This document shows positions 818-24,188 of a stretch of 35,048 nucleotides of DNA, piece after piece. The DNA lies in the IMG/VR virus record IMGVR_UViG_3300035701_001642, positions 1-35,048 of that record; one strand, written 5' to 3'. Each line of letters starts with the position of its first letter. The stretch's first letter is position 1. The notes beneath the pieces are model-generated. The model worked only from the letters and a program-made list of their open reading frames with translations. It was not told the DNA's origin and did no database searches. The position numbers and the translations under genes are program-made. Source of the DNA: a virus.

Positions 818-1561
818 ATGCCTAAAGTTTCTGTAATTGTGACCAGTTATAATTATGGGGAATTTTTGTGCGATTGTCTGAACAGCATCAAGGATCAAAC
901 TTATAAGGATTACGAGTTAGTCCTTGCGGATGATGGCTCCAATGATGATACTCTCAGGATCATGGAGCAAGCTAATCCTGATCTCTTGATCCGATCCAAG
1001 GACCGGAGAGGAGTGGTCCATATAAACAACTTGGGGGTCAGGTGCTCTTCGGGGAACTACATCTGTTTGATCAATAGCGATGACATGATTCTTCCAACTT
1101 ACTTGGAACGGTGTGTCGAGGTTTTAGACAGTCGGCAGGATATCGCGATTGCTTACACTGACTTCCATCACTTCGGTGGCGGATTAGACAACGATGTGAT
1201 CTTCAGGGATTATGACACTGAGGGGGGATTGGAGGAACTCCGGAAGTGGAACTTCATTCTTGGTTCGGCATTGTTCAAACGCCAAGCCTTCATTGAAGCC
1301 GGGGGCTTTTCTTCTTTGATGACTGATGGGTATGAAGATTATGATCTATGGCTTTCGATCTGTGAACTCGATGGAGGGAAACGGTGGAGAGCCAAGAAGA
1401 CTCCTGGTGCTCTCTATTTATACCGCAATCATGGACGAAACCGAACAATAGCTATGAAGTCTAAACGGGCCATTGCTCTCTTGTGGATAAAACACAAGAT
1501 GTTTGATCGGTTGACCGAATTTGAGTTTCCACCCGAATTGATCCAGAAGACTTTTGGCTAA
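818..1561 (+). CDS. Glycosyltransferase family 2
   Basis: This is a 247-residue GT-A fold transferase. The N-terminus has the classic beta-strand VSVIVTSYNYGEF, the nucleotide-sugar motif ADDGSNDDT (DDGS at residues 38-41) and the metal-binding LINSDD near residue 90, followed by LPTYLE. A later YEDYDLW segment fits the acceptor-side acidic motif of GT2 enzymes. It should transfer a sugar from an NDP-sugar in the cytoplasm; donor and acceptor cannot be read from sequence. There is no membrane segment. Its 3' end overlaps the next glycosyltransferase by 8 bases, so the two are probably co-translated. It is the first of four GT2-type genes in this island. Confidence 0.88.
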   Translation: MPKVSVIVTSYNYGEFLCDCLNSIKDQTYKDYELVLADDGSNDDTLRIMEQANPDLLIRSKDRRGVVHINNLGVRCSSGNYICLINSDDMILPTYLERCVEVLDSRQDIAIAYTDFHHFGGGLDNDVIFRDYDTEGGLEELRKWNFILGSALFKRQAFIEAGGFSSLMTDGYEDYDLWLSICELDGGKRWRAKKTPGALYLYRNHGRNRTIAMKSKRAIALLWIKHKMFDRLTEFEFPPELIQKTFG

Positions 1562-2642
1562 ACGAACAGTCCTCGCTGAGATCTCCACGAAGGATCGTTA
1601 TGATACCACGCTCCATCTTACGCTTGCTGCTATAGCGAACCAGACAGTCATCCCCGGGAAGTTGGTTATCTATGACGATGGAGAGTGTCGGGATTTGAGG
1701 ACAATGCCTCAGTATAATTCACTGCTTGCATTGCTCATGTTGAAAGGATGCCAGTGGTATTTTTCTCCAGGAACGCACAAAGGTCAACACTATAACCACC
1801 AAAGAGCTCAGACAGAGTTCGACGATGAACTCATCTGGAGATTGGATGATGATGTGGTCCCGGAGCCTGATGTCTTAGAGAAGCTTCTCAAACGGATGGA
1901 AGATCCACGGTTCGGTGCAGTAGGGGGATTGATCTTGAACCCCTTGGAGATTCCTTTCTGCTACAGCCTTTCCTCCGGGAAGATTATGGATGTGTTCTGG
2001 GCAATGAACGTTCAATGGTTCAAACCTCAAGGAGAGCCAAAGTTCATCGCTGTAGAACATCTCCATTGTTCTTTCCTCTACAAGAGGGGGTTGGCCGAGT
2101 ATGATCTCCGGTTGTCTAAGGCTGCTCACCGTGAAGAGACTTTGTTCTCTTACGGGATTCACCGGAAGGGATACATGGTTGGTGTGGACCAATCGGCCGT
2201 GACTTGGCATTTGAGGAGTCCCACAGGGGGGATCAGGAGTTATTCTAACGTTGATTATTGGAATCAAGACGAGAAGATCTTCTACGAGAAGATGCACGGT
2301 TATAAGGTTCTGTTTCGTGCGGCACGATACTTCGTTTTGAATGCAGGACTCGGTGATCATTATATCTTCAAGTCTGAGGTTCTCCCTTGGATCAAGAGGA
2401 AGTACCGAGGAGATATCATCATCCTTTCGGTATGCTATCCGGATGTCTTCAGGGACGATAAGGAAGTCCAGATCATCTCGATCGCAGATGCCCAGTTCGC
2501 TTTAGGGATGGAAAAGGCTAATCAGTTGAGTGTATATGGCTGGATGTGGGACAAGCAGTGGTACGCTAAGCCTATCGCACAGGCCTGGAGAAGGATGGTA
2601 GGGGTTGAGGATACTGATAGCACCTTACTCCAAAAAGCTTAG
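1554..2642 (+). CDS. Glycosyltransferase, GT2-like
   Basis: This is a 362-residue protein with a GT-A core: LVIYDDGE near residues 37-44 and the metal-site segment RLDDDVVPEPDVLEKL near residues 95-110, then AVGGLIL. The rest includes a long C-terminal extension (KYRGDIIILSVCYPD onward) that I do not recognise. The start is a TTG at 1554 inside the end of the preceding gene, giving an 8-base overlap; no better start is visible in frame before the core motif. The DDG and DDD motifs support sugar transfer from an NDP-sugar. Donor and acceptor are unknown. It overlaps the following half-length GT9-like gene by 38 bases. Confidence 0.78.
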   Translation: MAKRTVLAEISTKDRYDTTLHLTLAAIANQTVIPGKLVIYDDGECRDLRTMPQYNSLLALLMLKGCQWYFSPGTHKGQHYNHQRAQTEFDDELIWRLDDDVVPEPDVLEKLLKRMEDPRFGAVGGLILNPLEIPFCYSLSSGKIMDVFWAMNVQWFKPQGEPKFIAVEHLHCSFLYKRGLAEYDLRLSKAAHREETLFSYGIHRKGYMVGVDQSAVTWHLRSPTGGIRSYSNVDYWNQDEKIFYEKMHGYKVLFRAARYFVLNAGLGDHYIFKSEVLPWIKRKYRGDIIILSVCYPDVFRDDKEVQIISIADAQFALGMEKANQLSVYGWMWDKQWYAKPIAQAWRRMVGVEDTDSTLLQKA

Positions 2643-3087
2643 GGAAGAACATCTCCGTAACCCTAAGAACTTCCCCCACTGGGAAGAAGTTCTGAAATCC
2701 TTACATTCATGCCTGATGTGTGAGGTCATCCAGTTGGGTGTAGAAGGTGAAGAGAAGCTCAAGGGATGTGATGATTACTTCTTCAGTCTACCGATTCCCG
2801 AGCTTGAGAAAGTTGTTCAGGATTGTGACACCTGGGCTACGGTTGACAGTTACCTTCCGCACATGGTCCACGCAGCTGGAGGCCCTCCTGGAGTAGTAGT
2901 CTTTTCTAAGTCAGACCCCTTAGTCTTTGGTTATCCGGAGAATATCAATCTTCTCAAAGATAGAAGGTGGCTCAAGCCTTTCCAATTCGACATCTGGGAG
3001 AAGGAGCCTTTTGAGGAAGAAAGCTTTGTCAGTGCTGATGAAGTTGTCCAAGCCATTTTGTCAGTAGTCTCAAGGAGGAAGAAGTGA
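2605..3087 (+). CDS. GT9-like (heptosyltransferase-type) glycosyltransferase, half length
   Basis: This 160-residue protein resembles only the C-terminal nucleotide-binding half of family 9 glycosyltransferases such as ADP-heptose:LPS heptosyltransferases, which are usually about 330-350 residues. The supporting segment is TVDSYLPHMVHAAGG followed by VVFSKSDP and FGYPENINL, matching the family pattern of a donor-binding helix and a short Ser/Thr-Asp-Pro loop. The start is a TTG at 2605 with a GGTAGGGG ribosome site just upstream, inside the preceding gene. Either it is a minimal phage version or it works with a partner. The methyltransferase downstream overlaps its stop by GTGA. Family assignment is moderate. 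Confidence 0.6.
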   Translation: MRILIAPYSKKLREEHLRNPKNFPHWEEVLKSLHSCLMCEVIQLGVEGEEKLKGCDDYFFSLPIPELEKVVQDCDTWATVDSYLPHMVHAAGGPPGVVVFSKSDPLVFGYPENINLLKDRRWLKPFQFDIWEKEPFEEESFVSADEVVQAILSVVSRRKK

Positions 3088-3581
3088 AATTAAATCTTGG
3101 TTGTGGAAGGGAGAAGCTCCCCGGGTATGTGAATGTGGATCTTGCTAAGGCGGGGCCGGATGTTCCTTGGGATCTTGAACAGTATCCTTGGCCGTTTGAT
3201 GACAGTACGGTTGATGAGGTTCTCTTGAAGCACGTTGTGGAGCATATCCGAGATCTGATTCCATTCATGAATGAGCTGTGGAGAGTCTGTGCTCCACATG
3301 CCATTGTAAGGATTGAATGTCCTTACTATCTTCACCACAGGGCCGTGATGGACCCGACCCATGTTCGTTATATCTGTGAAGCAAGTTTACAATATTTCAA
3401 TCAGGATTGGTTGAGGTGGGTTGGTCTCATGCAGTATGACATACTCGCAAACTTCAAGATCAACGAGATCTCTTATCGCTATGCTCCGGAATGGGCAGAC
3501 AAACCTGACAAAGATTTCTTCAGACAACATTATGCCAACGTTGTCGAAGATATCTTTTTTGTATTGGAAGCTATAAAATAA
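3084..3581 (+). CDS. Class I SAM-dependent methyltransferase
   Basis: This 165-residue protein opens with KLNLGCGREKLPGYVNVDL, which is motif I (LGCG) and the acidic end of strand 2. VDEVLLKHVVEHI follows in the place of motif IV/V of type 11 methyltransferases. This compact form is common beside glycosyltransferases and usually methylates sugars or small molecules. The GTG start at 3084 overlaps the previous stop in a GTGA and is preceded by a strong AAGGAGGAAG site. It is shorter than typical 200-250 residue members but complete through the core fold. The substrate is unknown. Confidence 0.8.
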   Translation: MKLNLGCGREKLPGYVNVDLAKAGPDVPWDLEQYPWPFDDSTVDEVLLKHVVEHIRDLIPFMNELWRVCAPHAIVRIECPYYLHHRAVMDPTHVRYICEASLQYFNQDWLRWVGLMQYDILANFKINEISYRYAPEWADKPDKDFFRQHYANVVEDIFFVLEAIK

Positions 3582-3593
3582 AGGAGATTTGAA

Positions 3594-3848
3594 ATGGGAA
3601 AAGACTCAGCGTTGTTCGGTGATAGGGAGAAGGATGTCAAGGACGCGATCGTTGATGTCTTGGTCCATGAGCAGACCCTCATGAATCGGAGTCGTGATCT
3701 TGCAGTGACCGTTGTCCGGACTGCTTTCGAGGAGACATTACGTGAGTCCTTGATCGAGTCCGATAGGAAGGTTTATGCATATCACAATCCTCCTCCCATG
3801 GAAAAGAAACCGGTTGCTGAGGAAAAGAAGGGACTATTCAAAAAATGA
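3594..3848 (+). CDS. Hypothetical small protein
   Basis: This is an 84-residue soluble protein that I do not recognise. The middle is a predicted amphipathic helical stretch (SRDLAVTVVRTAFEETLRES), and the tail is Pro/Lys-rich (NPPPMEKKPVAEEKK). The start is well supported: AAAGGAGATTTGAAATG. It overlaps the following glycosyltransferase by 4 bases (ATGA), so it is translated with the glycan genes and could be an accessory factor, but nothing in the sequence shows a function. Confidence 0.65.
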   Translation: MGKDSALFGDREKDVKDAIVDVLVHEQTLMNRSRDLAVTVVRTAFEETLRESLIESDRKVYAYHNPPPMEKKPVAEEKKGLFKK

Positions 3849-4663
3849 TCAGTGTCGTAATGCCCGTTACGAATCGGTTGGATCTATTCAAGAAGACTCT
3901 CCCTTCCCTCATTAGGCAAAGGATCACGGCAGCTGAGGATTGGGAACTTGTGATCGTCGATTGGAACTCCACTGATGGGATTGAGGATTTTCTCAAGACG
4001 CAGATCAATGTTCTCAGGATTCACTATGTCCGGGTAGATGTCAGGAAAGGATTTGTCCCCGTCTATATGAATGGGGAAACAATGGTGAACCCTGCTCTGT
4101 CTTGGAACATTGGGATCAGGAAGTCCAAGGGTGAGATCTTGGTCATCACGAGTCCTGAGGTCATTCAGCTCACAGACGCAGTTTTCCAGTTCAGAGCTGC
4201 ACATAAACACTGTGTTGGAGTTCCAGTCATCCTGGCTTTTGTTGCGGATGCTCTTCGCCCTGAGACCGATACAACCCATGTTGCTGACAATCCCGGAATG
4301 GGTGTCTTGGTCAGTTCCACGTTCAGGGAGAAGGACGCTGGGCTCTATTTCCTTGGTTCTGTTCCCAAGAAGCTATTGGAAGCGATCAATGGGATAGATG
4401 AAGAGTACATGCGGGGGTTGTCCTACGAGGACACTGATACAGGTCGTAGGATGATGGCAGCTGGAGCGAGGTTAGTCCACGATGATGAGATCATTGGGAT
4501 CCACCAGTGGCATCCCCGGGTCCAGCCTTACGGTGATGGGTGGATGATCAATGAGAAGCGTTTCCAGGTTGGGTACCGGATTGTGGCCAATGTAGATCAC
4601 CAGTGGGGAGACTTCGGGTGTATTCTGCATGAGTGGGAAGGATATAGTGGCAGTATACAGTGA
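3845..4663 (+). CDS. Glycosyltransferase family 2
   Basis: This 272-residue GT-A transferase starts MISVVMPVTNRLDLF. The nucleotide-binding motif is IVDWNSTDG, a variant of the usual DDGSTD. A middle segment, VNPALSWNIGIRKSKGEIL, matches the conserved helix that precedes the metal site in GT2 enzymes. Near the end, GIDEEYMRGLSYEDTD fits the acceptor-side ED motif. No membrane helices are visible. It overlaps the upstream small gene by 4 bases. Its TGA at 4661-4663 shares an A with the ATG of a degraded endonuclease fragment. The class is confident; donor and acceptor are unknown. Confidence 0.85.
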   Translation: MISVVMPVTNRLDLFKKTLPSLIRQRITAAEDWELVIVDWNSTDGIEDFLKTQINVLRIHYVRVDVRKGFVPVYMNGETMVNPALSWNIGIRKSKGEILVITSPEVIQLTDAVFQFRAAHKHCVGVPVILAFVADALRPETDTTHVADNPGMGVLVSSTFREKDAGLYFLGSVPKKLLEAINGIDEEYMRGLSYEDTDTGRRMMAAGARLVHDDEIIGIHQWHPRVQPYGDGWMINEKRFQVGYRIVANVDHQWGDFGCILHEWEGYSGSIQ

Positions 4664-4749
4664 TGTACAGAGTTCTTTTTATTTGGAGTAGGGAATTGAA
4701 GAATTCTGAAAGATTGAAAAATAAAATTCTAAAATTTGTTAGAGGATAG
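4663..4749 (+). pseudogene. Remnant of a Vsr-like homing endonuclease (C-terminal 28 codons)
   Basis: Between the glycosyltransferase and the next methyltransferase, the frame starting at ATG 4663 reads 28 codons to TAG. Its product matches the last 25 residues of the endonuclease at 140-814 at 20 positions (LFIW, RELKN, ERLK and KILKFV shared). The DNA is also clearly related but more A/T-rich. Only the C-terminal tail survives, with no nuclease motif. This is best read as what remains after deletion of a second copy of the same homing endonuclease. It could still be translated as a short peptide because the ATG overlaps the upstream TGA. Confidence 0.8.
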
Positions 4750-4754
4750 AGAAA

Positions 4755-5354
4755 GTGATAAAAGTTGTTTTAGGAAATCACTGGTGCCCATTGGGTGATT
4801 GGGTGGTTCTGGAGGAGAAGGATCAAGACATTACTAAGCCTCTCCAGTTTGTTGACAACAGTGTGGACTGTTTGTTCATGGAGCATGTCATAGAGCACAT
4901 TACGTTTCATGACGCTCTGAAGTTCTTCAAAGAAGCTTACCGGTCTTTGAAGCCGGGTGGAGTCCTGCGGATTGTCGCTCCTGACTTGGACAAGTTGTTC
5001 GAGTTCAACTATGCTAAGTACTGTGCTAACACTTATAACAATGAATATTGCTGGGTCTGGATGGACCACTTTGGAGTCTCTTCTGACTACTGGATGAAGA
5101 ACTTCAAGGTGTTCTTTGTCAACTGGATGATCCACTCGGACTTTAATCATAAGTTCGTTTGGGACAAGAACCTACTGAGTCTAACGCTAGAGAGAGAAGG
5201 GTTTCAAGTCAAGATCTGTGACTGTGGGAAGGGGACCAATCCTGAGTTCTGCATCGAGAGGAGATACCGTGGGCTCTTGACGCACATGAATCCTCCTCCG
5301 GATTTCCCTCCTTACTACGATGCGGAAAGTTTCTTTGTGGAGGGAGTGAAATGA
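4755..5354 (+). CDS. Class I SAM-dependent methyltransferase, type 11-like
   Basis: This 199-residue protein begins with a GTG at 4755. The region around residues 28-60 (LQFVDNSVDCLFMEHVIEHI) followed by YRSLKPGGVLRIVAPDLDKL is the typical second half of a type 11 methyltransferase core. The first motif is eroded (VVLGNHWCPLGDW instead of a glycine-rich GxGxG loop), so SAM binding may be weak or altered. It is related in layout to the methyltransferase at 3084. It starts five bases after the endonuclease remnant and overlaps the next gene by 4 bases. Sugar or small-molecule methylation is inferred from its neighbours. Confidence 0.72.
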   Translation: MIKVVLGNHWCPLGDWVVLEEKDQDITKPLQFVDNSVDCLFMEHVIEHITFHDALKFFKEAYRSLKPGGVLRIVAPDLDKLFEFNYAKYCANTYNNEYCWVWMDHFGVSSDYWMKNFKVFFVNWMIHSDFNHKFVWDKNLLSLTLEREGFQVKICDCGKGTNPEFCIERRYRGLLTHMNPPPDFPPYYDAESFFVEGVK

Positions 5355-5692
5355 AGATATTGACAATTTGTTACGGAGGAAACAGTCGGAGTGTCGCAAT
5401 GGCTTTCGTGTTGAAGTACAACTTTGGCCATGATGTTCTGACCTGCAGTTGTCAGGCCAACTCGGATGAGACCCGAGCCATGTTGTGCCAGTGGGCAGAT
5501 GTGGTTGTAGTCACGTCAGCCGAGTTCTTGCCGTATATACGGCAGGAGTTCATCAAGAAAACAGTGGTTGCGGAACTAGGTCCTGATCGGTGGTTTCTCC
5601 AGAACTACATCCCCAAGGATCTGTTGGACCTCTGCAGCTATCTGTGGACCCAGATCATAGCCGGTTGGGAAGGTCCATTGCCCGGAGCATAA
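5351..5692 (+). CDS. Low-molecular-weight tyrosine phosphatase-like protein
   Basis: This 113-residue protein starts MKILTICYGGNSRS, which contains the phosphatase signature C-X5-R-S (Cys7, Arg13, Ser14) at the N-terminus as in low-molecular-weight protein tyrosine phosphatases. A later ELGPDRWF could supply the general-acid Asp. It is shorter than the ~150 residues usual for the family. In bacteria such phosphatases often partner tyrosine kinases that control polysaccharide export, which fits its place among glycosyltransferases. ATGA overlap with the previous gene supports the start. An arsenate-reductase-like or inactive role cannot be excluded. Confidence 0.6.
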   Translation: MKILTICYGGNSRSVAMAFVLKYNFGHDVLTCSCQANSDETRAMLCQWADVVVVTSAEFLPYIRQEFIKKTVVAELGPDRWFLQNYIPKDLLDLCSYLWTQIIAGWEGPLPGA

Positions 5693-5701
5693 GGAGGAAA
5701 G

Positions 5702-6091
5702 ATGTGTAAGTACCTTTATCAAGGATTTGCCCGTGAGGTAGTTTGTAAGCGGGAAAGTGGTAGACTAGCAACGGGTATGGAGTGGGTTGAGTACAAGGGT
5801 GGAAGAGAAACCGATGAATCGATCATTCTTGGCCGTGTCAAGAAGGCTGTAAAGGATACGAAGCCGCATGAGGGATACAGCGGTTATCCTGGAGCGGGAA
5901 CTGCCTTCAAGGACAGCCTGGATGATGGGGAAGTTCTCAGGTACTTGAGGCTTGAGCTCCAAGAGATGCTTTCCGACAATCTGTTGAGTGAGGACTTGAA
6001 GAAGGAGATCAACGGTTGTCTCTGCGAAGTACTGAACAACATTGGTATAGTGAAACAGAGAATAAATTTCTATTCTCTGTGCGACCTATGA
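5702..6091 (+). CDS. Hypothetical protein
   Basis: This 129-residue protein has a strong ribosome site (AAGGAGGAAAGATG). The first half is basic and beta-rich (GMEWVEYKGGRETDES), the middle is Gly/Tyr-rich (HEGYSGYPGAGT), and the end is helical and acidic (LRLELQEMLSDNLLSEDLKKEI). I recognise no family, no membrane segment and no zinc motif. It ends in an ATGA overlap with the following glycosyltransferase. Confidence 0.6.
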   Translation: MCKYLYQGFAREVVCKRESGRLATGMEWVEYKGGRETDESIILGRVKKAVKDTKPHEGYSGYPGAGTAFKDSLDDGEVLRYLRLELQEMLSDNLLSEDLKKEINGCLCEVLNNIGIVKQRINFYSLCDL

Positions 6092-7023
6092 GACTTGTTT
6101 GTATTGTTCGGATGTACAATGAAATGAAGACCGGGCATGCTAAGCGCTTCTTTGAGCATTGGAAGGAATGGGGAGCTGATGCTCTCCTTGTCCTTGATGA
6201 CTGCTCGGATGATGGAACGTATGAGTTTGCTAAGCAGTTCACTTCTTACGTTTGGAGAAGGACTAAGCGTTATACCCGATTCCGTGAGATGGAGAACTCG
6301 ATCTTTTTGATCGAACGATGTACCGACATCGGGGCCGAGTACATTCTGTTCATGGATGCGGATGAGGTTCTGACCCGGGGTGCCGGGGGGATTATCCGTG
6401 ACAAGTGGCTCTCGATCATGGACCAGGCTGACTTCAGTGCTTTGAACTTTACGACTTACTCGCTGTGGAAAACTCCCCGGTACAGACGTTGGGATTCCCT
6501 TTGGGACTGTGAGATGCGATTCCCCCGGATTTGGAAGAACAAGGATCTCCACTATGAAGTCCCTGGCCCAAACCAGCTACATGCCTTACAGGCACCGCTA
6601 CAGGTCTACAGACACTGGTATCCTGTTCCTGATCAAGAGTTGGCCATTCTTCACTATGCCTATGCTTCTCCACAACAGATTGAGGACAGATTTCAACACT
6701 ATGTTGAGATCGATGGAAAACACATCGGATGGTATCCAAGGATCATGGATGAGACTGGATTGGTCTTAGAGAGGATACCAAATGATCGTTATCCATCTGG
6801 TCTCGTCCCGGGATTTGATGACGAATATTATCTTGAGATGTCGTTGGAGACTGTCCACAAAATCTGTGAAGCAATCGGAAAAGCTTGTTGGAAGGACAGG
6901 CCGATTGAAGAGATAGACACATGGTGGGAGAGTACAAGGCATACAGAGGAGGTCAGAACCAAGTTGGTCTTTGAACGTCCGGGGAGGGATTTCATTTTTC
7001 CGAAGGGTTTAGGAGATGGGTAA
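6088..7023 (+). CDS. Glycosyltransferase, GT2-like
   Basis: I place the start at ATG 6088, which overlaps the previous stop in ATGA and gives MRLVCIVRMYNEM, the usual first strand of GT2 proteins. The frame is open upstream to 6016, but that part only covers the preceding gene. The 311-residue product has LLVLDDCSDDGTYE, the nucleotide-sugar motif, and EYILFMDADEVL, the metal-binding DxD, within the first 110 residues. A long C-terminal part rich in Trp and Tyr is not recognised. This N-terminal layout resembles the subgroup of GT2 proteins that start from an RxYNE motif. Donor and acceptor are unknown. Confidence 0.82.
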   Translation: MRLVCIVRMYNEMKTGHAKRFFEHWKEWGADALLVLDDCSDDGTYEFAKQFTSYVWRRTKRYTRFREMENSIFLIERCTDIGAEYILFMDADEVLTRGAGGIIRDKWLSIMDQADFSALNFTTYSLWKTPRYRRWDSLWDCEMRFPRIWKNKDLHYEVPGPNQLHALQAPLQVYRHWYPVPDQELAILHYAYASPQQIEDRFQHYVEIDGKHIGWYPRIMDETGLVLERIPNDRYPSGLVPGFDDEYYLEMSLETVHKICEAIGKACWKDRPIEEIDTWWESTRHTEEVRTKLVFERPGRDFIFPKGLGDG

Positions 7024-7591
7024 GCAATGTCACACGGTTGAGTCGCTTTTGAAATTCCGAGGAGATTGGGCAACCCATCTCACTCGGTATTATTTTGCAG
7101 CAAACATTCTGAAAGATTTTGGAGTCGAGAACACGGTCCTCGATGCGGGATGTGGGTGTGGATATGGGTTGGAAATTCTGTCACGTTACGGATACAAGGT
7201 GACTGGGGTTGATTCTGACGAGGAGAACTTTCAGTATACGCTGAAGCGGTTCAATTCTCCAAAGATAAGTTTCTTAGTTATTCCGTTGGAGAAGATCGAA
7301 AAGATATATGAAGGGGTGGTATCCTTTGAAGCCCTTGAGCACTCGGATGATTTGGATAAGGGATTTGAGATACTCCGTAAGGCAGCTACTAATGTCTTCA
7401 TCTTCTCTGTTCCCTACAAACAGGTCAACGATGGGACAGACAAGATCCACAAACATTTTATGCTCGATGAGTCAAGGTTTCCCAAAGAGACGATGTTTTT
7501 CTATCAGACCTTAGACGGTCTGATCTACGATCGGATGCCAACTAAGCATTCTCCAAACACCCTGATAGGAGTTCTGAAACGTGGAAACTGA
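7016..7591 (+). CDS. Class I SAM-dependent methyltransferase
   Basis: This 191-residue protein has a clear motif I, VLDAGCGCGYGLEILSRYG, followed by VTGVDSDEEN (acidic strand 2 end) and VVSFEALEHSDD (motif IV region). This is the usual UbiG-like core. The C-terminal part has FSVPYKQVNDGTDKIHKHF, common in sugar-modifying methyltransferases. The start at 7016 follows TTTAGGAG and overlaps the glycosyltransferase by 8 bases; its own end overlaps the radical SAM gene by 11 bases. Substrate unknown; a sugar is the likeliest guess from its neighbours. Confidence 0.85.
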   Translation: MGKQCHTVESLLKFRGDWATHLTRYYFAANILKDFGVENTVLDAGCGCGYGLEILSRYGYKVTGVDSDEENFQYTLKRFNSPKISFLVIPLEKIEKIYEGVVSFEALEHSDDLDKGFEILRKAATNVFIFSVPYKQVNDGTDKIHKHFMLDESRFPKETMFFYQTLDGLIYDRMPTKHSPNTLIGVLKRGN

Positions 7592-8582
7592 CATTCCCCA
7601 GAGTTATACGGCCGCGGCTAATTTCCCACTGAAGCTCTTTGTCCATGAGGAAGTCATTCGGTCTACTAAGAATGGATTCATTCCCCCGATCCATGTTCAG
7701 CTCTGTCCTACAAACAGGTGCAACAGGAACTGTTCCTATTGTTCTTGTTCAGCTCGGGATAAGACATTGGAGTTGTCGTTCCAGAGGATCTGCCAGATCA
7801 TGGATGTCTTCCGGGTTCTTGGTTGCCGTGCTGTGACAATCACAGGTGGGGGAGAACCCCTTCTGCATCCAGATATCCAAAAGATCATTCCGTATATTGC
7901 CAAATACTTAGGTATTGAGGTTGGACTTGTGACCAATGGGATGCTTTTGAACAAGTTCTCTCCTCAGTTGTGGGACAATGTTCTGTGGTGTCGAATAAGC
8001 AATGATGACTCGAGACCACTCACCCAAGAGTATATCAAGGTTCTCGAGGAAGGGTTGGAGATGAGTCCTCGGGTGGACTGGGCGTTTAGCCATGTTGTCT
8101 CAAAAGAACCGAACATGGATGTGATCTCTGACGTGGTGGAATTTGCCAATAGGCACAATTTCACCCATATCCGTCTGGTCTCAGATCTTTTGGATTTAGA
8201 GCATGTTCGTCCAATGTTGGAGATTAAGGAGGAGCTCAGGAAACGAGGAGTAGATGACAAACTAGTTGTTTATCAGGAAAGAAAGAATTATGAAATAGGG
8301 ACTTCAAAGTGTCTTATCAGTCTCCTAAAGCCGACTGTAGGAGCTGATGGGAATTTGTACCCCTGCTGCGGGATACAGTACGCTTCCCCAAATCCTACTC
8401 GTGATTTCAAAGACGAAGAAGGAAGAATGGTTATGGGGAAAGCTACCCCAGCGGAGATTGGAGAGATCTGGAGAGCTTGCCATCCTTTCGATGGATCAGT
8501 CTGTGCAGTCTGTTACTATGGCGAGTACAATAGATCGTTGGCACTCATGCTGAAAAAGATTCAGCATCCAAACCACGTGTGA
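7581..8582 (+). CDS. Radical SAM protein with SPASM-like C-terminus
   Basis: This 333-residue protein contains the radical SAM cluster motif CNRNCSYC (Cys47, Cys51, Cys54; CX3CX2C) after a QLCPTN strand, then TITGGGEPLLHPD, the GGE motif that binds the SAM amino group. The C-terminal region has further cysteines (LYPCCGIQY and SVCAVCYYG) that could hold an auxiliary iron-sulfur cluster as in SPASM or twitch domains. It would cleave SAM to a 5'-deoxyadenosyl radical and act on an unknown substrate: a sugar, peptide or nucleotide. GTG start at 7581 inside the methyltransferase gene. It closes the modification island. Confidence 0.88.
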   Translation: METDIPQSYTAAANFPLKLFVHEEVIRSTKNGFIPPIHVQLCPTNRCNRNCSYCSCSARDKTLELSFQRICQIMDVFRVLGCRAVTITGGGEPLLHPDIQKIIPYIAKYLGIEVGLVTNGMLLNKFSPQLWDNVLWCRISNDDSRPLTQEYIKVLEEGLEMSPRVDWAFSHVVSKEPNMDVISDVVEFANRHNFTHIRLVSDLLDLEHVRPMLEIKEELRKRGVDDKLVVYQERKNYEIGTSKCLISLLKPTVGADGNLYPCCGIQYASPNPTRDFKDEEGRMVMGKATPAEIGEIWRACHPFDGSVCAVCYYGEYNRSLALMLKKIQHPNHV

Positions 8583-15230: not shown

Positions 15231-15959
15231 ATGTTTAGAGTAGTGTTCATCTTATTTTTTGCGCTCATCGGGGTTTGTCAAGCGCAGCAGTGGACCGAGA
15301 TGGTATTCAATGGGGGTTTCGATGACAGTAGAGGGTCTTACTATGGATGGCGGGTAACCCATAGACAAACCTCTAGCAGTCAGGACTATGTTACTCCCCC
15401 CCGGAGTGCTGTTATCAATCCCGATTCTGGAGTGGTTTGGCAGGAGCCTCCCGAGTTAGGTTGGCCATCTCTAACTGGTCCTGGGACATTCAGGTTGAAC
15501 ATTGGCTATTCGCACAAGTTTCCAGTTCCCGGATGTAGTCTATATGTTATCTTCGAGGTCGTTGATTCCCGGAACAGAGCGTACATCAGAACTGAAATAG
15601 CTAATGCTGTGGATTTGAATGATCAGACGAATTGGACATATAAGGACACGATTTTCTCTTTCCAATTGTCTGACACGGAGTCTATTAGTCGCAACTTGGT
15701 TCATGCTTATCCTCGAGTTGTCATCCGGGGCTGGAGATGGTATTACAGCATTAAGTTCGATGGTGTCAGCGTAGGGTATCAGTGGGTCCCTACAGGTGTG
15801 GAACAAGAAGAACCTGCCCGACGGCTTCCTACGGCCTTTCTCCGGCCTCTAGGGACCTATAATATCCTGGGCCAAAGGGTGGAACATCTACGTCCTGGCC
15901 AGGTAGGGTTTGTCGTAAGGAACGACGGTTCTGTGAAGAAGATCTTGAATTTACGGTAA
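15231..15959 (+). CDS. Exported jelly-roll-like protein with a T9SS-type sorting tail
   Basis: This 242-residue protein starts with a typical Sec signal peptide (MFRVVFILFFALIGVCQA) with likely cleavage after Ala. The mature part (NGGFDDSRGSYYGWRV onward) reads like a carbohydrate-binding jelly-roll of the CBM4/9 type. The last ~46 residues contain GTYNILGQRVEHLRPG, then a strand, then SVKKILNLR. This closely follows the YDxLGRRV...G...KKxxxxR pattern of C-terminal sorting domains of type IX secretion cargo, here in a short form. It has its own promoter and strong ribosome site. I infer a protein displayed on the host surface during infection, perhaps binding glycan or blocking other phages. 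The signal peptide is clear; the sorting-domain call is moderate. Confidence 0.72.
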   Translation: MFRVVFILFFALIGVCQAQQWTEMVFNGGFDDSRGSYYGWRVTHRQTSSSQDYVTPPRSAVINPDSGVVWQEPPELGWPSLTGPGTFRLNIGYSHKFPVPGCSLYVIFEVVDSRNRAYIRTEIANAVDLNDQTNWTYKDTIFSFQLSDTESISRNLVHAYPRVVIRGWRWYYSIKFDGVSVGYQWVPTGVEQEEPARRLPTAFLRPLGTYNILGQRVEHLRPGQVGFVVRNDGSVKKILNLR

Positions 15960-22114: not shown

Positions 22115-22319
22115 GACTGGCGTGCGGCGTGGATGGACACGCTGATGAGACCTTAAGACATACATAGTAGATGGTCTTGGGCGAGACGATTAGCTACCGT
22201 CTATTAGGGAGGAAACTCAGGTTTGTCGTGGACTCGAAACAAGATAAGGGTCCGAGTGAGATAGCCCCTGTCCGTCATTGAGTATGTCAGTCGGATGGAG
22301 ACGTCCGGCCTCGCCAGTC
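22115..22319 (+). ncRNA. Structured RNA element, copy 1
   Basis: The gene-free stretch after 22110 starts and ends with complementary arms: GACTGGCG (22115-22122) and CGCCAGTC (22312-22319), 8 perfect pairs. Just inside is a hairpin, GCGTG (22127-22131) and CACGC (22138-22142), with loop GATGGA. Then ATGAGA (22145-22150), then a further hairpin AGACC (22148-22152) with GGTCT (22173-22177). The beginning matches copy 2 at 22845 almost base for base, and a C:G pair here is T:A there. A TTG-started zinc-finger gene follows at 22350. Two-copy covariation argues for RNA, not coding DNA. Confidence 0.7.
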
Positions 22320-22349
22320 AAACTAGGAAGTTGAGAGAGGTGAAGAGTT

Positions 22350-22517
22350 TTGAAGTACACGCGGTTCTGCAATAATTGTGGCCGAAAGTTCAAGACCAAA
22401 TGGCCATGGAGAAGGTACTGCCAGTCTAAGTGTAGATACACATTGTACAACCAGGTCTATTACTACCAAGTCACAAAGAAAAAAAGAAAAAGACAGCGAA
22501 AGAAAAAGAAGTTATAA
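22350..22517 (+). CDS. Mini zinc-finger protein with a basic tail
   Basis: This 55-residue protein starts at TTG 22350 after AGAGAGGTGA; the frame closes 7 bases upstream at TGA, so no longer version exists. It has RFCNNCGRKF and YCQSKCRY (Cys-x2-Cys then Cys-x3-Cys), a zinc finger, and ends with a very basic tail of Lys and Arg (VTKKKRKRQRKKKKL). RNA or DNA binding is likely. It lies just downstream of structured RNA copy 1. Its TAA stop falls inside a -10-like box. Confidence 0.68.
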   Translation: MKYTRFCNNCGRKFKTKWPWRRYCQSKCRYTLYNQVYYYQVTKKKRKRQRKKKKL

Positions 22518-22518
22518 T
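22490..22518 (+). promoter_or_regulatory. Possible promoter for the PC4-like gene
   Basis: TATAAT at 22513-22518 overlaps the stop of the zinc-finger gene. A weak AAGACA (3 of 6 to TTGACA) lies 17 bases upstream at 22490-22495. The context lacks the TTYGTRG pattern of the other promoters, so this one is less certain. Confidence 0.35.
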
Positions 22519-22540
22519 TTAGGTACATTGGGAGGATTGG

Positions 22541-22837
22541 ATGATGGATGAAGGAAAGGATTTCAAAGACCTGTTCGATGAACTGAAAGTGGTGGGGGAG
22601 ATTGGGAAGGGCGGGGAGAACAAGATCATTGCTCGTCTCCTTCAGAACAAGAAGAGCGGTAACGTATTCCTTGATGTCCGGAAGTGTTTCACGGATAGAG
22701 AAAGTGGTGAGCCCAGGTTTGGCAAGGGGATCATGCTGAACTGGGAGCAGGCTCACTTCTTGGCTGATCTCCTTGTTCCCGACATGTTCATCTCTTGGGA
22801 AGAGCTGGATAAGCCTAAGTTCAAGAAGAAACGGTAA
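22541..22837 (+). CDS. PC4-like single-stranded DNA-binding protein
   Basis: This 98-residue protein contains NVFLDVRKCFTDRESGEP followed by FGKGIMLNWEQAHFLADLL. This matches the PC4 (transcriptional coactivator p15) pattern: a strand with IR/VR, a charged turn, the glycine-lysine-glycine motif and a helix. In phages and bacteria this fold binds single-stranded DNA as a dimer. Its N-terminal extension is acidic and the tail is Lys-rich (KPKFKKKR). It sits between two related structured RNAs and just before the replication genes, so replication or transcription roles are both plausible. Confidence 0.65.
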   Translation: MMDEGKDFKDLFDELKVVGEIGKGGENKIIARLLQNKKSGNVFLDVRKCFTDRESGEPRFGKGIMLNWEQAHFLADLLVPDMFISWEELDKPKFKKKR

Positions 22838-22841
22838 GGTT

Positions 22842-22959
22842 GGAACTGGCGTCGGTGTGGAGGAGCATACGGAAAGCAATGAGAGCTGAAGGAGCCGGTC
22901 CCCAAGGCTCAGGGCCCTAAATATGGGACTAATCGGTTCAAATCCGATACGCCAGTTCT
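22842..22959 (+). ncRNA. Structured RNA element, copy 2 (tRNA-like ends)
   Basis: A terminal helix of 10 perfect pairs joins GAACTGGCGT (22843-22852) with ACGCCAGTTC (22949-22958). Inside are a hairpin GTGTG/CATAC (22855-22870, loop GAGGAG), then ATGAGA (22879-22884), a GAGCC/GGCTC hairpin (22892-22910) and, right beside the closing helix, ATCGG-TTCAAAT-CCGAT (22932-22948), which looks exactly like a tRNA T-arm. The 5' part matches copy 1, including a compensated base pair. No anticodon loop with U33 and no CCA end are present, so it is not an ordinary tRNA. A zinc-finger gene follows at 22981. Confidence 0.72.
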
Positions 22960-22980: not shown

Positions 22981-23151
22981 TTGAGAAAGGTCAAGGTTAG
23001 ATTCAGTTGTCACCATCACACTGTAGTGGATCTAACAAATCAGCAAGATACGAACCAAGTCAAAGAAGAATATGCTTCAAAACCCTGTCTGACCTGTGAA
23101 CGAACAAAACGGAAGGCAGTAAACAATTCGAATGAACATCTTGGGCAGTAG
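22981..23151 (+). CDS. Mini zinc-finger protein
   Basis: This 56-residue protein starts at TTG 22981. AAGGAGGTGA, a perfect anti-Shine-Dalgarno complement, lies at 22961-22970; the nearby ATG at 22970 soon stops. It contains FSCHHHTVVDL and KPCLTCERTKR, a Cys-x-x-His plus Cys-x2-Cys zinc-binding layout. The arrangement copies that of the other mini zinc finger: structured RNA, then TTG start. Its end overlaps the next gene by 20 bases. Nucleic acid binding is inferred. Confidence 0.65.
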   Translation: MRKVKVRFSCHHHTVVDLTNQQDTNQVKEEYASKPCLTCERTKRKAVNNSNEHLGQ

Positions 23152-24148
23152 CCTTAAAACAGTTGAACACTTAGGAGCTTCGGCTCTACGTCTGAAGCTC
23201 CTTTCACGTTGGGCTAAGGGGTTGGCTAAAGCCCGGGGGAATCCTTGGGGGACGGTTGAACAGAAGCCTGAGGACTTATCCAGTCGAAGACTACCAGCGG
23301 AAGAGGTCAGCAAGGTCTTCGATAAGTTCTCCGAGTTCTGCTTCAACTACGCCAAAGTCACTTACAAGCCTAGGCGGTCTGTCAAGAAACTTCGGGGGCT
23401 TATCCACAATTCCTACCGTTCACTTAAGACGGTAGGCCGTACGATTGATGACTACCTAGAGTGGCTCTACAAGTGGAGATTCATCCCAATACAGTTTCTC
23501 TCCATTGAGTATCTATTCGGTAGGCGTTGGCTCGATTCCTACTTGACAGCCGTTGGAAGGTTGGATAGTCTCACAGACCAAGAGTATGAAATCGAGATTC
23601 TTTTGGAGCACTACAGGAATCGCTTCGGATTCTGCCGAGGGTCCTTGAACGAGAAGATGGCTAATGTCTTCCGTGAACGGGTCGGGGATATGATCAAGGT
23701 GGGAGTCCTGATGGAGGACATCAAGAAGGGAATGGATGAATCCAACTTGTCCAGTCCCGCTCCTTGGGAACTGTTCAGAACCACTCTCCGGAGGAAACGT
23801 GATCTCCTCAAGGAGAAGTTCGGTGAGAGAAAGGGGATATGGAATCGGGATGTCGAGTCCAGGAGGCTAGAGGAGTTCTACTGGGCGACACTGAATATGG
23901 CTTGTGGTATTCCTCTGGATGATAAGCAGCGGAGGGTCTTTGGGCTTCCTAAGACCAAAGAAGAGGCCGAAGAGATCCTCTTAGAGTCCGATAGGGGGCG
24001 CTTAATGCTTCTTCTGTACCCTGAGGGACAGAAGATCTTGAAGAAGTCTAAGGCAGGTTTAGATCTGCTCCAGGAGAATGTGGACCGGGAGAAGGTTCTT
24101 CAGAAACTTTCAGCGCTCAAGGGGGCAAATGATTCGAGCCGACGGTAG
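23132..24148 (+). CDS. Unknown protein of the replication region
   Basis: This 338-residue protein is basic and mostly helical. I see no Walker, zinc or metal motif. Some segments (LEWLYKWRFIPIQFLSIEYL, FYWATLNMACGIPLDDKQRR) look like packed helices. It lies directly before the helicase loader and DnaB-type helicase. The order PC4-like, unknown, loader, helicase is what one would expect of an initiator or primase-associated protein, but that role is inference. A perfect 14-pair hairpin follows the stop directly. Confidence 0.6.
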   Translation: MNILGSSLKTVEHLGASALRLKLLSRWAKGLAKARGNPWGTVEQKPEDLSSRRLPAEEVSKVFDKFSEFCFNYAKVTYKPRRSVKKLRGLIHNSYRSLKTVGRTIDDYLEWLYKWRFIPIQFLSIEYLFGRRWLDSYLTAVGRLDSLTDQEYEIEILLEHYRNRFGFCRGSLNEKMANVFRERVGDMIKVGVLMEDIKKGMDESNLSSPAPWELFRTTLRRKRDLLKEKFGERKGIWNRDVESRRLEEFYWATLNMACGIPLDDKQRRVFGLPKTKEEAEEILLESDRGRLMLLLYPEGQKILKKSKAGLDLLQENVDREKVLQKLSALKGANDSSRR

Positions 24149-24179
24149 GTTAACAAATTCCCTTCGGGAATTTGTTAAC
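24149..24179 (+). other. Perfect 14-pair hairpin after the stop codon
   Basis: GTTAACAAATTCCC pairs completely with GGGAATTTGTTAAC around a 3-base loop (TTC), right after the TAG at 24148. The bases after it (TACAGTTCTCC) lack a T-run, so it is not a standard rho-independent terminator. It could protect the 3' end of the upstream mRNA or pause polymerase. Confidence 0.7.
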
Positions 24180-24188
24180 TACAGTTCT

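Follow-up and report, generated by a model that had tools for sequence, protein, structure and literature searches.

A viral record of 35,048 bases (the whole stretch of DNA analysed here, hereafter the window) contains two segments that share a 17-mer and fold in a similar manner, and this locus raises the question of whether the two represent a genuine RNA family and, if so, what such an RNA might do. An earlier note on this DNA had described them as two copies of an undescribed structured RNA at 22115-22319 and 22842-22959, and both sets of coordinates were found to be correct (Table 1). As that note had stated, the copies have the same kind of closed shape. In both, a closing helix of at least 8 bp is followed by a 5-bp hairpin and, on the 3' strand, by a second, stacked hairpin; the middles of the two copies are unrelated to each other. 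When the first hairpins of copy 1 and copy 2 were compared, the reported compensating change from C:G to T:A and the change from G:C to G:U were both present, although the side of the change had been misprinted. The T-arm-like hairpin described at the end of copy 2 is a perfect hairpin on the closing helix, and it proved to be the key to the family. The motif ATGAGA, which had been listed as part of the common shape, was dropped as a family feature, because it is common to the two window copies only and was found elsewhere once, at a different place. Copy 1 was more stable than 200 of 200 shuffles (folding z -4.5). The stability of copy 2 was modest relative to shuffles (z -1.7), and folding energy alone is therefore insufficient to prove this copy. 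When antisense targets of both inserts were sought within the window, the longest complement was 9-11 nt, equal to that obtained with shuffled sequences.

Table 1. Coordinates of the two RNA copies, their parts and the neighbouring ORFs in the window.
Feature	Position	Strand	Remarks
Copy 1 RNA element	22115..22319	+	205 nt; fold; covariance-model match 22117-22317, E 0.021
Copy 1 closing helix	22115-22122 with 22312-22319	+	GACTGGCG pairs with CGCCAGTC; 8 bp
Copy 1 D-arm-like hairpin	22127..22142	+	GCGTG-GATGGA-CACGC; 6-nt loop identical in Iodobacter phage PhiPLPE
Copy 1 variable insert	22143..22289	+	structured, z -3.1; sequence not common to other members
Copy 1 3' hairpin at T-arm position	22290..22309	+	8 bp, GNRA (GAGA) loop
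Zinc-finger-like ORF, 3' of copy 1	22350..22517	+	55 aa, TTG start; neighbour, outside the RNA family
Weakly PC4-like ORF, between copies	22541..22837	+	98 aa; Pfam E 0.013, below cut-off; neighbour
Copy 2 RNA element	22842..22959	+	fold; covariance-model match 22845-22956, E 4.9e-6
Copy 2 closing helix	22842-22852 with 22949-22959	+	GGAACTGGCGT pairs with ACGCCAGTTCT; 11 bp, one G-U
Copy 2 D-arm-like hairpin	22855..22870	+	GTGTG-GAGGAG-CATAC
Copy 2 variable insert	22871..22931	+	
Copy 2 T-arm	22932..22948	+	ATCGG-TTCAAAT-CCGAT; perfect hairpin, stacked directly on closing helix
ORF with C/H residues, 3' of copy 2	22981..23151	+	56 aa, TTG start; neighbour

Since searching by protein revealed no close kin of the virus in the collections searched, RNA patterns were used to find relatives. 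When the 17-mer common to both copies was scanned against IMG/VR, 52 contigs were obtained, mostly through chance matches in genes; three contigs (L005, L040 and L045) combined a complete closing helix and the same first hairpin with another hairpin on the 3' strand. The loops of these three elements were then used as patterns on viral contigs, together with a structure filter, and about 27 further distinct members were recovered in unrelated phages. In the layout designated type A, an 8-bp closing helix is followed by two bases (CG, CA or, rarely, AA), a 5-bp hairpin with the loop GAUGNUGA, an insert of 51-213 nt, and a 5-bp 3' hairpin that sits directly on the closing helix and usually has the loop GUCAGAA. 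Exceptions to this 3' loop are UUCRAAU in copy 2 and L055 (with the exact T-loop forms UUCAAAU and UUCGAAU) and GNRA in copy 1 and L045. Family-wide, the closing helix has 5-16 bp (typically 8), and the 3' hairpin, stacked on it in nearly all members, has 5 bp and a 7-9-nt loop. The insert, which stands at the position of the anticodon arm, is hypervariable and about 35-210 nt long; no k-mer above shuffles was found when inserts were searched for a conserved motif, and insert stability was on average little above that of shuffles (mean z -0.6). Moreover, among 84,980 cellular species genomes the type-A hairpin pattern gave 58 matches, none of which had the whole structure, and type A thus looks phage-specific.

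Annotated phages were also queried with short sequences. Iodobacter phage PhiPLPE was found to carry a type-A element with a 16-bp closing helix and a loop as in copy 1, followed at once by an element of a second layout, sub-type B, with one helix strand common to both. Sub-type B consists of an outer helix (for example GTTGTGATG/CATCACAAC), AA, the hairpin TGCGC-AGGCUGAU-GCGCA, an insert, and the hairpin GCCGG-AGAUCAGCA-CCGGC. It is carried by PhiPLPE, P1 and phages of Klebsiella, Pseudomonas, Erwinia and Cronobacter, and the intergenic region of Pseudomonas phage AH02 that contains it matches 93 phage records. In P1 there are two type-B units, and the RNA region follows immediately after tRNA-Asn and tRNA-Thr; in KP591P1 and CASP1 the element likewise adjoins tRNAs, and in PAJU2 and Shamal it lies between Q and the holin/lysis genes. 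P1 and several other phages have a long hairpin at the place held by the type-A element in PhiPLPE; given this hairpin, and the helix strand shared with the neighbouring element in PhiPLPE, alternative pairing is possible. Within Escherichia phage P1 (L254:1414-2060), a hairpin CACAACAGGTAAGG...CTTACCGTTGTG is repeated before and after unit 1, and because the 3' strand of this hairpin runs into the closing helix of the unit that follows, the two pairings are mutually exclusive.

The P1 sequence was present in 842 of 5,426 complete E. coli genomes (about 1 in 6), at 709 chromosomal and 237 plasmid places; the carriers are prophages or phage-plasmids, and no annotated feature was found at the element among the 40 E. 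coli places listed. A structurally conserved RNA lies unannotated in a classic laboratory phage and, at the places listed, in E. coli genomes, and this occurrence makes its function testable at once in a model system, by deletion, probing and expression. The 15-mer of the B loop occurred at 39 places in 398 proteobacterial genomes, and 4 of these were real elements according to the structure filter. In the P1-related records RCS47 and JL22, an ORF named lipoprotein Plp covers the RNA, which may be a misannotation.

Whether all these elements form one family was assessed through covariation and covariance models. In the alignment of 20 type-A members, 98.9% of the cells in 18 pairs were paired, compared with 70% in shuffles and 31-39% in slid alignments, and all 8 closing pairs had changed on both sides. 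Because the closing pairs had served in filtering, an unbiased test was carried out in which places were picked by the two loops only, with pairing ignored. The 38 places so selected separated cleanly: 13 had both hairpins and 7-8 of 8 closing pairs, and 25 had at most 6 pairs. In sub-type B, 11 pairs showed double changes (0 of 500 shuffles). A covariance model built from sub-type B only (R1) recovered the type-A elements of L182, L221 and L174 at exact coordinates (E 0.009 to 0.16). The reciprocal model (R2), built from 13 type-A viral members with the window left out, recovered the other type-A members at E < 1e-7, PhiPLPE at 2e-6, and, again at exact coordinates, the type-B elements of CASP1, KP591P1, JJ1886, ES2 and P1 (E 0.02 to 1.4). 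Moreover, when R2 was run on the 35-kb window, the two best matches were copy 2 and copy 1 (Table 1), and the next had an E of 0.5. The earlier note held that a lack of covariation or of homologues would refute an RNA family; covariation and homologues were both found. These data strongly support the conclusion that the two elements of the window are members of a genuine family of tRNA-shaped noncoding RNAs, which is apparently undescribed and occurs in many unrelated phages.

No Rfam 15 family was found at the gathering threshold at any element, permissive searches likewise gave no match, and ARAGORN never called the elements, although it called neighbouring tRNAs. Hammerhead, HDV-like, riboswitch and C4-antisense readings were also considered, and none was shown by Rfam. 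The literature searched, from which subscription papers were largely absent, contained no description of the RNA family, and an earlier description is possible.

The architecture resembles that of tmRNA (SsrA), with its acceptor helix, its D and T regions contributed by the two ends, and its long insertion replacing the anticodon arm. It differs from tmRNA in having an 8-bp rather than a 7-bp acceptor helix and a real D-arm-like hairpin, besides lacking an Rfam or ARAGORN match; the G3-U70 alanine identity pair is absent (pair 3 is C-G, G-C, U-A or A-U in 20 of 20 aligned members), and a tag frame with a small hydrophobic end and a stop occurs in 3 of 28 inserts, without conservation. The 8-bp acceptor helix and 5-bp T arm are shared with tRNA-Sec (8+5 bp acceptor/T stack). 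A T arm stacked on the acceptor helix is common to the family and tRNA, as is the T loop UUCRAAU of copy 2 and L055, whereas the family departs from tRNA (RF00005) in its insert of about 35-210 nt, in having no anticodon arm, and in carrying mostly GUCAGAA or AGAUCAGCA at the T position. The arms and location of the elements, and a broken tRNA-like sequence in the insert of L061, are what would be expected of tRNA or tmRNA genes that have decayed and persist by chance; this is contradicted by the covariation, with strong purifying selection on the loops and compensatory changes in the stems, and also by the missing anticodon arm and the negative ARAGORN and Rfam results, and we consider it extremely unlikely. 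Bacterial Y RNA (YrlA), likewise noncoding and also known in phages, resembles the present family in its tRNA-like D and T features. It binds a Ro protein and is not known to have an acceptor stem, and no YrlA match was obtained in Rfam. GOLLD, ROOL and other large phage RNAs are noncoding RNAs found near tRNA genes; the family is alike in being phage-borne and near tRNAs, but GOLLD and ROOL are much larger, and Rfam matched neither at any element. A further small phage RNA, Proteo-phage-1 (RF03044), was detected by Rfam in Pseudomonas phage PS-1 (L258:971-1050), about 150 nt before the type-B element; it is separate and has no overlap with that element.

We favor the interpretation, with a probability of roughly 0.6, that these elements are phage-encoded, trans-acting noncoding RNAs which mimic the top half of a tRNA (acceptor, D arm and T arm) and carry a hypervariable insert. 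The ends of the RNA would pair into an acceptor-like helix, a D-arm-like hairpin would follow two bases on, and the T-arm-like hairpin would stack on the helix. Contact between the two conserved loops may then produce a tRNA-like elbow; the loops are complementary in most type-A members (UGA:UCA) and in sub-type B (CUGAU:AUCAG, five pairs) but they are invariant inside each sub-type and the contact is lacking in L045, L196 and copy 1, which counts against this reading. Most members have stops in all frames, which argues for an RNA rather than a protein. With respect to the ends, 24 of 27 members have a pyrimidine at base -1 and 26 of 28 have G or A at base +1; the closing helix is followed by A (21 of 27) and then by pyrimidines (23 and 22 of 27), an end that the window copies do not have. 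These are features by which bacterial RNase P recognizes precursor tRNAs. Based on the pyrimidine at -1, the A after the helix and the two pyrimidines thereafter, RNase P would be the likeliest binder among the host tRNA-handling machinery. This machinery may mature and protect the RNA or be titrated by it, and the insert could carry a lineage-specific function or drift freely. Members are frequently found near phage tRNA genes, several of them in tRNA arrays, which is in line with tRNA mimicry: in L201 the element ends an array of 31 tRNAs, 18 nt behind tRNA-Pro on the same strand, and in L045 it lies 75 nt before tRNA-Ser. The data show the structure, conservation and distribution of these RNAs, and the proposed function is inferred. 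As tRNA mimics they would join the few such families known and would give a reason for phage RNAs beside tRNA arrays. More tentatively, and with more doubt than confidence, the family may be a new class of phage tRNA mimic in which the conserved acceptor/D/T frame displays a hypervariable, lineage-specific RNA cargo against host RNA-processing or tRNA-directed defences; such an RNA would be the natural counterpart of the engineered tRNA scaffold. A published P1 CRISPRi screen scored the surrounding genes trnT, plp, upl and tciA-C as non-essential for lytic growth under laboratory conditions (PMC10695390), which fits an accessory, host- or defence-facing role of the P1 RNA.

Transcript signals and neighbouring genes bear on whether the RNA would act in trans. 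Four members (L178, L201, L210 and L182) have a strong -10 hexamer; such hexamers occurred solely at a distance of 6-7 nt from base 1, with a summed score above all 1000 controls, and this promoter-like spacing suggests that some members have their own transcript starting at base 1. The TATAAT box of L201 would equally start an mRNA exactly at base 1, and many elements (window, L056, L059, L063 and L201) sit closely behind a stop codon, at a distance of a few nt, with a start codon 20-50 nt further on. A leader role is thus possible for the many members just before a gene, which counts against tRNA mimicry, and the elements could be cis-acting, that is, structured 5' leaders or processing signals that protect or separate phage mRNAs in the manner of tRNA punctuation and have no function in trans. 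We judge this unlikely. The downstream genes are unrelated, a mere processing signal would need no insert of 35-210 nt, and in L151 the element lies between convergent ORFs. Moreover, the downstream neighbour with a PHROG match in L178, and both long flanking ORFs in L210, are on the opposite strand, which suggests action in trans. A discrete, stable, trans-acting transcript therefore remains our preferred interpretation.

Copy number and location were also considered. The 3' loop motif was single in 24 of the 25 viral records having it, and the one extra was an antisense tRNA-Gln. Occurrence once per genome, inverted-repeat ends around a variable middle that recall attC sites, and proximity to replication genes in the window, L056 and L062 could indicate a DNA-level structure, such as a cruciform or single-strand hairpins serving as a replication origin, packaging or recombination site. 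Nonetheless, the elements are mostly on the coding strand, genome position is not conserved, and neither the -10 boxes at fixed distance nor the T-arm sequences and tRNA neighbours would be expected, so that such a site appears very unlikely.

Five type-A members (L150 [7326-7494], L174, L208, L238 and L179) lie within ORFs; they share one phase, and each has a length of 1 mod 3. Their closing helix is GAGAGTCG or GAGAATCG, and in four of the five the element ends translate as ESRSPDGDG...GSEPADSH or close to it; a search for uninterrupted homologues of these ORFs found none. These members are odd for an RNA that is to be excised, and they weigh against tRNA mimicry. Together with the two units in P1, the two copies in the window and the unrelated hosts and sites, they might point to a mobile or selfish element, either MITE-like or resembling the palindromic elements of Rickettsia, which insert into genes in frame, with a structure serving its own spread. 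However, there is usually one copy per genome, the middle is not common to members, and neither a target duplication nor an empty site was detected; we regard mobility as a decidedly improbable explanation. In L061 (4183-4351, minus strand), the insert holds a tRNA-like cloverleaf in which an extended hairpin replaces the anticodon arm and which ARAGORN did not call, and the insert of L040 carries a type-B hairpin loop. The in-ORF members, this cloverleaf and this loop suggest an exchange of modules.

The earlier note had further proposed that the RNA is paired with small nucleic-acid-binding or zinc-finger proteins. This proposal was not supported, because the genes around the element change from phage to phage in nearly all cases, the zinc-finger neighbour does not recur, and small CxxC proteins are seldom found next to other members; PHROG matches of genes flanking members include portal, scaffold, terminase, Sak4, exonuclease and integrase. 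Elsewhere in the window, a near-perfect hairpin, GTTAACAAATTCCC-TTCG-GGGAATTTGTTAAC, lies at 24147-24182 directly 3' of a 338-aa ORF and is probably a terminator or processing site. By eye, positions 818-8582 appear to encode a series of glycosyltransferases and methyltransferases together with a radical-SAM-like protein, which looks like surface-modification cargo in a phage genome, and HNH-like ORFs are present elsewhere. Also by eye, a secreted-looking 242-aa protein is encoded at 15231-15959; its C-terminal NILGQRVEHLRPGQVGFVVRNDGSVKKILNLR is reminiscent of a type IX secretion sorting tail, a possible clue to the host.
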